49,465 nucleotides of DNA from Gemmatimonas phototrophica. Its GTDB lineage: Bacteria; Gemmatimonadota; Gemmatimonadetes; Gemmatimonadales; Gemmatimonadaceae. Made by a program: the position numbers and the translations under genes. Each line of letters opens with the position of its first letter. The stretch's first letter is position 1. The notes under the pieces were generated by a model. It was not told the DNA's origin and did no database searches. It saw nothing but the letters and a program-made list of their open reading frames with translations. The stretch is taken from the NCBI GenBank assembly GCA_945869195.1, contig CAMBNV010000010.1, positions 1 through 49,465 of the forward strand. Reading direction: 5' to 3'. Positions 47,365 to 49,465 of this stretch are shown one piece after another.

Positions 47365-47640
47365 CTCAATCCTCGGCGAAGTTCGTGTCACGTCTCATCG
47401 TGCCGTGGCCGCTTCAATACCGTGCGGGTGGCCGGCGGCCGTACCTGAAGATACCATGGCGCGCGGCCAACGACCGTCCGCTCTCCACTCGTCAACTGAC
47501 ACCTGTGTGCCGCGACGCGTCGCGTCGCCCGGCATACTGCCCCTGCCCTCGACGCATGGCCTATCCTGTTCCCCGAGTTTGACAGGGTGATGGTGTTCAT
47601 CGGCTGCCCTGTCCTTCCTTGCCAGGCGCGCCGGCGCCCG

Positions 47641-47970
47641 TCAGTCCACGATAAACAACGTCGCGCCCACGGTAGTGTGTGAGCGGTGCGACTCTGCGTC
47701 GTCGGCAACCTGGTAGCTCATCCCCGGTGTGAGCACGAACCGTCGCCCGTCCTCGAGTTCGGTGTGCAGCTCGCCGGCGATGCAGAGCAGGATGTGCCCC
47801 TTCGCACACCAATGATCCGCGCGATACCCCGGCGTGTACTCGACCATGCGTACCCGCAGGTCGCCAAACCGCTGGGTGCGCCAGATGGCGACGCCCTCTT
47901 CGCCTCGCTTCTCCACGCGTTCGATTTGCGACCAGTCGGTTGTCCCGAACGGGATGGCTTCCATGCGCAT
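47641..47970 (-). CDS. DHCW-motif cupin protein
   Basis: The start at 47970 has AGGG at a suitable distance and gives 109 residues; the family N-terminus EAIPFGTTDWSQIE follows directly. A longer upstream frame has no support. The cupin motifs are FGDLRVRMVEYTPGYRADHW (with the DHWC signature), GHILLCIAGELHTEL and PGMSYQVADDAESHRSH. The single-domain cupin likely binds a metal; substrate unknown. It sits alone between lgt and the HEPN-like gene. Confidence 0.85.
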   Translation of the reverse strand: MRMEAIPFGTTDWSQIERVEKRGEEGVAIWRTQRFGDLRVRMVEYTPGYRADHWCAKGHILLCIAGELHTELEDGRRFVLTPGMSYQVADDAESHRSHTTVGATLFIVD

Positions 47971-48138
47971 GCGCTGATCCCTCGAGGAGCTGCCGACCGT
48001 GGAGTGTGCTAAGAACGACTGAATAATGCAGCCGTCCCGTGGCCGCTCATATGCTGTCTCGTGGAGATCGGCAGAGCAGCCGCCGCGGCGGCGCTGAGGA
48101 CGCACCAAGAGCGAGCAACTGTACTGGGAGTCTCCGCA

Positions 48139-48990
48139 TTAGGCCGACGCTGCGGGCGTTGCGTGCCGCGGCGGCACCTGCAGCCGATAGGCCCGGGCGA
48201 TGAGGACAATCCCGGCGAGCACGGGAAGCACGCTCAGCCACTGACCGGTATGAATCGGGACTCCGATCCACTGCTCGACGGCAACGAATGGTGCGAGCGC
48301 ACGAAGGTCCTCCCCATAGAACATCTTGTATTGCTCGACAAAGATTCTCAGCCCGAAGTACACGGTGAGAAACGTCCCCGCGATCAGTCCCGACCCGACC
48401 GGCCGGATGTTCCGGCGTTCGACGGCCGTGAGCACCAGCCAGGTGGCCGGCCCGATTAGCAGATCGTACAGCTGGGCCGGGTGGCGGGGCACAAGGTCGT
48501 GACGAGCGAACACAACAGCCCACGGCACTGACGATGGGCTCCCGAGCACCTCTGAGTTGAAAAAGTTGCCGACCCGCATCCAGCCCACCGCGAGCGCGAC
48601 GGCAGGCGCGAAATAGTCGGAAAGACGTGTCCAGCTGATTCCATGTCGGCGGCTGAACAGAAAGAGCATGATCGGCAGCGCCAGCGCCGCGCCGTGCGAC
48701 GCGACCCCGCCTTCCCAGACAGCGAAGATCTTGAGCGGATGCGCGAGGTAGTACTTGGGCTGGTAGAAGAAGCAGTGACCAAGCCGTGCACCGATAATCG
48801 CGGTGGGGGCTGCCCAGTAGAGCATCACCTCTGCGAACTCCGCAGTCTCACCAAAACGCTGCACGCGTGAACGCCATACGGCGAACGCCGTGACAAAGAC
48901 CATCCCGAAGCAGATCCCGTAGTACCGGACCTGGATTGACCCAAGCTGGAGTAGTACCGGATCAAGGTTCCACACGAGGGGGTCACTCAT
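48139..48990 (-). CDS. lgt: Prolipoprotein diacylglyceryl transferase
   Basis: Lgt transfers diacylglycerol from phosphatidylglycerol to the Cys of prolipoproteins in the inner membrane. The ATG at 48990 gives 283 residues and about seven helices. Signatures: GARLGHCFFYQPKYY, WEGGVASHGAALA, the Lgt motif RVGNFFNSEVLG and RHPAQLYDLL, ending with QWLSVLPVLAGIVL. The sequence pattern resembles Bacteroidetes-type Lgt rather than the short proteobacterial form, and the region looks less G+C-rich than its surroundings, possibly acquired. The first 58 upstream codons of the frame are not needed. The substrate lipoproteins probably include the M1 aminopeptidase of this window. Confidence 0.92.
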   Translation of the reverse strand: MSDPLVWNLDPVLLQLGSIQVRYYGICFGMVFVTAFAVWRSRVQRFGETAEFAEVMLYWAAPTAIIGARLGHCFFYQPKYYLAHPLKIFAVWEGGVASHGAALALPIMLFLFSRRHGISWTRLSDYFAPAVALAVGWMRVGNFFNSEVLGSPSSVPWAVVFARHDLVPRHPAQLYDLLIGPATWLVLTAVERRNIRPVGSGLIAGTFLTVYFGLRIFVEQYKMFYGEDLRALAPFVAVEQWIGVPIHTGQWLSVLPVLAGIVLIARAYRLQVPPRHATPAASA

Positions 48991-49029
48991 TGCTTCCGCA
49001 ACGCACCTTGCCAAAGGGGGATTTCCACT

Positions 49030-49048
49030 GCACTCTATAAAGTAGTGC
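49030..49048. promoter_or_regulatory. A+T-rich palindrome in the lgt divergent region
   Basis: GCACT CTATAAAGT AGTGC (5-bp arms 49030-49034 and 49044-49048) overlaps TATAAA on one strand and TTATAG on the other, midway between lgt and the edge gene. It can serve as the -10 of one or both and as a binding site. No reliable -35 is seen. Confidence 0.35.
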
Positions 49049-49094
49049 TGCAACGAATCTAATGCCGCTGCGCCATCCCGTGTCGTACACCTAA

Positions 49095-49465
49095 ATGTCG
49101 AGCCCCCAGATGATCCGCACAACTTTCCGGGCGTTCGTGGAGCGCCACCGCCTTGCCATGACACTCGGCGGGATTGTCGCGGGCCTCGCAGTGATCATCC
49201 CGGCATGCGGTGCTAACGAACCGTCCTTCACGATCGTCATCGGAACGCTCACGATCGTGAAGGACGCGCAGCCCAATAGCGCCCAGGATTTCGCCTTCAC
49301 GCATAACATCGCGAGTAGCCCAGGCTTCTCCCTCGACGATGACGCCGACGCCACGCTCTCCAATCAGCGTGTCTTCTCCGCCCTCGCCGTGGGGACCTAC
49401 ACCTTCGCCGAGACGCCCGTCAGCGGCTGGAACCTCACCAGCGTGGTCTGCTCACCCTCCGCCGG
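49095..49465 (+). CDS. Surface protein with prealbumin-like (SpaA-type) domain, 5' part
   Basis: The frame opens with ATG at 49095 (taa just before) and runs off the right edge after about 123 codons. A hydrophobic segment (about residues 22-37) ends in IPACG, a possible lipoprotein or export signal. Next is a beta-sandwich repeat: GTLTIVKDAQPNSAQDFAF, then FSLDDDA and AVGTYTFAETPVSGW, the pattern of prealbumin-like/SpaA domains in adhesins and large surface proteins. More domains are expected outside the window. A perfect 16-bp inverted repeat lies within it (49222-49266). Alternative starts at 49110 and 49158. Confidence 0.75.
   Translation, partial: MSSPQMIRTTFRAFVERHRLAMTLGGIVAGLAVIIPACGANEPSFTIVIGTLTIVKDAQPNSAQDFAFTHNIASSPGFSLDDDADATLSNQRVFSALAVGTYTFAETPVSGWNLTSVVCSPSA
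49222..49266. repeat. Perfect 16-bp inverted repeat inside the coding sequence
   Basis: cgtccttcacgatcgt (49222-49237) and acgatcgtgaaggacg (49251-49266) are perfect reverse complements with a 13-nt spacer. It is in frame within the surface-protein gene, so both arms encode TIV-containing peptide segments. The mRNA hairpin would be very stable about 130 nt after the start codon. Confidence 0.9.

Follow-up and report, generated by a model that had tools for sequence, protein, structure and literature searches.

A perfect 16-bp hairpin between the leader and the first domain of a lipoprotein-like gene of Gemmatimonas phototrophica, probably a template-switch scar or a coincidence in a linker under little constraint

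The DNA analysed here (the window) is a stretch of 49,465 nucleotides from Gemmatimonas phototrophica, near the end of which lie two divergent genes. On the minus strand, lgt, which codes for prolipoprotein diacylglyceryl transferase, occupies 48139-49164 as its ORF is listed; its true start is probably further in, near 48990. On the plus strand, the 5' part of a lipoprotein-like gene (49095-49463, 123 codons) is cut by the end of the contig, as is its first SpaA_4 (PF24514) prealbumin-like domain, which a profile match places at 49248-49454. The translation opens with the leader MIRTTFRAFVERHRLAMTLGGIVAGLAVIIPAC, whose Cys lies in the context IPAC, a putative lipobox that differs from the consensus at a single position. 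The divergent lgt beside it fits the identity of a lipoprotein. The earlier note on this DNA called the product a surface protein, which the hydrophobic leader, the lipobox-like Cys and the SpaA_4 domains make plausible, with the surface location itself putative.

The rest of the gene is found on another contig. The window's contig, G000:C10, ends in the 143 bases (window 49323-49465) with which G000:C8 begins (L005:1-143). This is the sole exact overlap of 30-500 bases among 30 contig ends, and the two probably adjoin each other in the genome. The frame is open on C8 up to a stop at 580-582, so that the gene ends at base 582 of that contig and has 269 codons in total, with the overlap counted once. 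Its product consists of the hydrophobic leader and two SpaA_4 prealbumin-like domains, each with a TIVKDAQPN start; the window part scores 34.9 bits and the C8 part 83.7 bits, both above the curated cut-off of 27.3 bits. Further along C8, a metallo-beta-lactamase-fold frame (L005:675-1289) is broken by an in-frame TAG at 1050-1052 and is then open to 1287-1289; it is probably a pseudogene or a sequencing error.

The hairpin occupies codons 43-58 of the 49095-49463 ORF, at the junction of the export leader and the first folded domain. The earlier note had described it as a perfect inverted repeat inside a coding sequence, near the 5' end, and both this position and its geometry proved exact in every respect: two arms of 16 nt, at 49222-49237 and 49251-49266, are complementary at 16 of 16 positions and are separated by a 13-nt loop (49238-49250). 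The left arm, CGTCCTTCACGATCGT, contains the codons for (P)SFTIV, and the right arm, ACGATCGTGAAGGACG, those for TIVKD(A), with which the first SpaA_4 domain opens. The self-complementary octamer ACGATCGT, inside the right-arm codons ACG-ATC-GTG, is present in both arms and hence also as a direct repeat; a looser inverted repeat, with arms of 21 and 21 nt that match at 90%, has a loop of 3 nt. An assembly artefact at the contig end was considered and rejected: the frame runs into C8 with a complete second domain, and the leader is common to the gene in the same place in a relative from another genus (G163, below), so the coding sequence is coherent on either side of the stem.

Folded as RNA, the 45-mer reaches -27.2 kcal/mol, whereas its shuffles average -11.78 (z = -6.45), and the stem is retained when it is folded in a context of 301 nt, although that region as a whole is only slightly stabler than its shuffles (z = -1.68). 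One possible explanation is a functional mRNA hairpin: a ribosome pause just after the leader would aid export or lipid attachment, or the stem would tune the stability of the mRNA. The strength of the local fold and its place directly after the leader would suit such a role; the modest score of the wider region speaks against it, as does the comparison with relatives given below, and we hold it to be unlikely. A literature search on pausing hairpins at lipoprotein leaders found nothing, one on Gemmatimonadota inverted repeats found nothing relevant, and one on prealbumin-like lipoproteins found nothing. Another explanation would be an intrinsic transcription terminator or attenuator, for which there is the strong stem near the 5' end. 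The loop of 13 nt, the lack of a T-run after 49266 and a frame that carries on through two domains make this the explanation that we credit least. A consensus scan of 48900-49465 found no terminator-like sites (it covers loops of 3-8, and the window loop is 13), and its promoter part found none either.

The two arms differ in kind. On the right is ordinary coding sequence, the TIVKD with which SpaA_4 begins, and it is used twice in the gene: positions 49241-49273 are an exact direct copy, of 33 nt, of the start of domain 2 (G000:C8:249-281), a run that takes in the last 10 nt of the loop (49241-49250). TIVKDA begins at least one domain in 16 of 23 SpaA_4 loci from species genomes, a figure that is partly so by construction since TIVKDAQP was among the six search patterns. 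The left arm, in contrast, lies in the linker between the leader and the first domain. The exact arm sequence occurs at three sites in the genome, all in the hairpin gene, and in the plus orientation only at the left arm; the nine further arm-like sites listed have two mismatches each.

These counts bear on the suggestion, made in the earlier note, that the repeat attracts a recombinase. On this explanation, the hairpin would be a recombinase's recognition site or invertible loop, or would belong to some mobile or repeated family of palindromes. Inversion of the loop would not close the frame, and the contig end is 199 bases away on the downstream side, so local heterogeneity is possible. However, with three exact sites in a single gene, the arm lacks the many copies of a REP-like repeated palindromic element; moreover, the exact hairpin pattern has no matches in viral contigs, where 19 pattern stretches were checked and no relative of the protein was confirmed, and Rfam gives no structured RNA at E values up to 1 in 47500-49465. 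The suggestion is thus unsupported, and we regard this explanation as very improbable.

What the stem looks like elsewhere was examined around the starts of SpaA_4 domains, in 63 rows from 28 sources. The longest perfect stem was 4-8 bp in 62 of the 63 rows, and only at the window hairpin was it 16 bp; a match was counted if it began no more than 6 residues into its domain, one start in L038 was dropped for its short flank, one in G009 was counted twice, and domains in tandem within a gene are related rather than independent cases. The window gene, with its two SpaA_4 domains and their TIVKDAQPN start, is the only one counted with the stem: within the SpaA_4 starts sampled, the hairpin is private to one gene.

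The sole relative with a gene in the same place, G163, belongs to another genus; its lgt is 73% identical to that of the window and is likewise divergent. Its leader is 62% identical over 37 residues to that of the window gene, whereas the gene has no SpaA_4 domain, and a Pfam comparison of its first 546 residues gave no family. The similarity between the two DNAs fades just after the Cys codon, the linker is without a clear counterpart in G163, and no inverted repeat of at least 12 nt was found in the 601 bases of the G163 gene tested. The check in homologues that the earlier note had proposed thus showed no such stem, either at the other SpaA_4 starts counted or in the same-place gene, and the idea that it slows translation is left with no comparative support, since none of the other 62 rows has a stem above 8 bp. 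Since the right arm is a conserved and twice-used domain start, and since G163 keeps the leader with neither SpaA_4 nor an inverted repeat in that place, we infer from the sequences that the right arm came first and that the left one is derived.

A similar leader (44% identity over 36 residues) is found in a gene of G202, with matches to Big_2, aBig_2 and RibLong instead of SpaA_4; the leader-sharing genes are at L042, from 1504 (G163), and at L043, from 1632 on the minus strand (G202). From these sequences, the leader appears to have been combined with different domains in different genomes. The 23 species-genome loci that match do so from residue 36 or later, that is, in the domain and not in the leader. 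Among 288 genomes of the order, five match the protein, the window's own included, and the other four do so at 50% identity or less, with no close orthologue that has an unconverted linker among them. Among 16 other genomes of the same genus, SpaA_4 domains occur only in G009, in a different frame of 1015 residues. Consequently, no event can be placed on a branch.

The window lgt is matched in 41 of 118 genomes of the family (its own included), at 73% in G163 and at no more than 36% in the others; 57 genomes without a match are unlisted in this search, whose loose first look may miss distant lgt genes. In the same-genus genomes listed, G011 has a weak match and six have none. A neighbourhood of lgt and lipoprotein gene common to many relatives was not found among the 118 genomes, and the two genes may be an exchanged pair.

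How far does chance account for the stem? The earlier note had judged it unlikely by chance, and this holds with respect to base composition: an order-3 Markov simulation of 12.0 Mb gave one stem of at least 16 bp with a loop of 3-20, a rate of about 0.19 per 2.33-Mb genome that rests on this one event. The judgement becomes much weaker once the peptide and the codon preference are given. When synonymous codons were resampled for the same peptide, with the codon usage of 241 long frames of the same genome, all 16 positions were paired in 661 of 200,000 draws (0.33%) and at least 14 of 16 in 34,130 of 200,000; when the whole 369-nt ORF was resampled, a stem of at least 16 bp arose somewhere in 7 of 1500 cases. 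Peptide and codon preference thus account for much of the hairpin.

A simple explanation would then be a coincidence, in which the linker encodes, by luck, FTIV seven codons ahead of LTIVKD, and the usual codons (TTC, ACG, ATC, GTC/GTG, AAG, GAC) make the arms largely complementary, with one less-used Ser codon, TCC, completing the stem. The draws just given favour it, as do the presence of ACGATCGT in both arms as a direct repeat, with a genome count that is only mildly high (27 seen against 20.5 expected), and a genome big enough, at the Markov rate, for rare coincidences. An over-represented iterated octamer was considered separately and rejected: ACGATCGT and four related palindromes were counted near expectation. 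Coincidence nevertheless requires that the right linker peptide, FTIVIGTLTIVKD, arose by luck, and it has to face the excess of long coding stems described next; we regard it as a serious possibility, albeit one that we would not bet on.

Long stems are not rare in this genome. A survey of 62 pieces (1,242,465 bases, about 53% of the genome) gave 14 stems of at least 16 bp. In 12 of the 14, the loop is of 3-6 nt, and in 12 of the 14 the local coding score is at most 0.07 per codon, features such as terminators would show; at the window hairpin, the score is 0.30 per codon. For stems within genes, a first count in 2.04 Mb of four genomes of the genus gave 8 of at least 14 bp in called genes (5, 1, 2 and 0). 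A recount on the extracted genes gave 9 (5 + 2 + 2 + 0) against 0.84 (0.42 + 0.17 + 0.17 + 0.08) in synonymous shuffles, the latter being means of 12 shuffles per genome summed over the four genomes; both counts depend on our own crude gene caller, and the number of at least 14 bp is small. One of the nine stems, L175:703-747, most likely lies between two genes, and without it 7 or 8 remain, according to the count. The excess does not climb smoothly with stem length, which counts against a template switch: stems of 11 bp number 36 where the shuffles give 22.2, those of 12-13 bp 15 where they give 10.1, and those of 14 bp or more 9 where they give 0.84. Its being slight among the shorter stems and marked only among the few longest suits the copying of segments by template switching, for which it is no proof. 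Since coding stems of at least 14 bp exceed their synonymous shuffles roughly tenfold, the window hairpin belongs to a small and ordinary class.

The hairpin may accordingly be seen as a by-product at the level of the DNA, with no selected function of its own, whose left arm was made by a template switch (quasipalindrome correction); we give this reading an even chance of being correct. The right arm would be the old coding sequence for the first strand of the SpaA_4 domain. During replication, the nascent strand would briefly have copied a nearby complementary segment, in a switch seeded by the palindromic octamer ACGATCGT and by the partial pairing that codon choice gives to FTIV and TIVKD. 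The left arm, in the linker between leader and domain, would thereby have turned into a perfect reverse complement of the right arm, and it would have persisted because the linker tolerates such a change. The arms, the domain, the twin of the right arm in domain 2 and the lack of such a stem at the other SpaA_4 starts counted are observations; this direction of copying, and the template switch itself, are the most likely reading of them.

The duplication of a short segment in inverted orientation, the third of the readings offered in the earlier note, is therefore the best supported of the three: the right arm is conserved and twice used, and its reverse complement, the left arm, sits in a linker that has no homology to the G163 gene. 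A direct duplication of seven codons fits in part, since TCACGATCGT occurs again 21 nt on and 14 of 21 nt are identical at an offset of 21, but it fits worse than the inverted reading, with its 16 of 16.

Precedents exist for such events. Template switching from one short inverted repeat to another is a documented origin of perfect inverted repeats in coding DNA. In yeast, multi-base changes in 39 genes arose in this way, and in REG2 a repeat with 5-bp arms was converted into a perfect one with 16-bp arms (PMC8604942). Template switching can create hairpins in a single event (PMC8794818), and quasipalindrome template-switch events have been studied in E. coli, in lacZ and thyA (PMC7202029). 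Quasipalindromes are perfect or near-perfect inverted repeats with a short spacer, and the window hairpin, with 16 of 16 nt and a spacer of 13 nt, looks by its sequence like a putative product of this kind. It resembles the mutations explained by the Ripley model (PMC7202029, PMC8604942) in being a short perfect inverted repeat with a small spacer in coding sequence and in having one old arm, another apparently copied, and a partial pairing as a seed; it differs from them in that it is known without its ancestral imperfect state, so that here the event would be reconstructed from its product. In the mitochondrial genes of Nematomorpha, coding palindromes are numerous and reach 284 bp (PMC6649704). 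As in the window hairpin, both arms are translated; however, the Nematomorpha palindromes are long and numerous and encode conserved protein in both arms, whereas the window hairpin is a single short stem with one arm in conserved protein.

Taken together, the hairpin does not look like a functional element; mutation and codon choice, in a linker under little constraint, appear to have left it as an unconserved by-product, and a template-switch scar or a coincidence is the best reading. It offers a tidy case of how an inverted duplication or codon preference can place a strong stem in coding sequence with no selected role, at the very junction of a lipoprotein-like leader with a domain that the nearest same-place relative lacks. 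This single case alone changes nothing. If such scars proved numerous in this lineage's export leaders and linkers, template-switch events in bacterial genes could be counted by means of them.

The distribution of coding stems with respect to export leaders also bears on the functional mRNA hairpin. In the window's own genome, four of the five stems of at least 14 bp in called genes (three of four without L175) fall within the opening 70 codons of a gene whose N-terminus is hydrophobic, a zone that makes up 7.0% of the coding bases; for shorter stems, the numbers are 2 of 8 at 12-13 bp and 3 of 19 at 11 bp. This pattern, which would favour a pause after the leader, was first seen in the same data, and in three genomes of the same genus it did not recur (0 of 3 at 14 bp or more, 1 of 7 at 12-13 bp and 1 of 17 at 11 bp), so a clustering of coding stems at export leaders is not confirmed. 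A broader proposal would be that long perfect stems at the leader-domain junctions of this lineage's exported-protein genes are retained in the mRNA as pause signals, setting the timing of export or lipidation, a set that would include the window hairpin, L084:6141-6177 and L158:19592-19626; we think this quite improbable. Both of the latter are in the window's own genome. L084:6141-6177 is a 17-bp perfect stem with a 3-nt loop inside a signal-peptide-like leader, in an ORF of 392 codons that matches no Pfam family, and L158:19592-19626 is a 15-bp perfect stem with a 5-nt loop just past a lipobox-like Cys, in a long and credible gene. Stems of such size also occur away from export leaders, since in G005, of the same genus, a 16-bp perfect stem with a 17-nt loop (L216:488-536) lies in the middle of a called gene of 494 codons.
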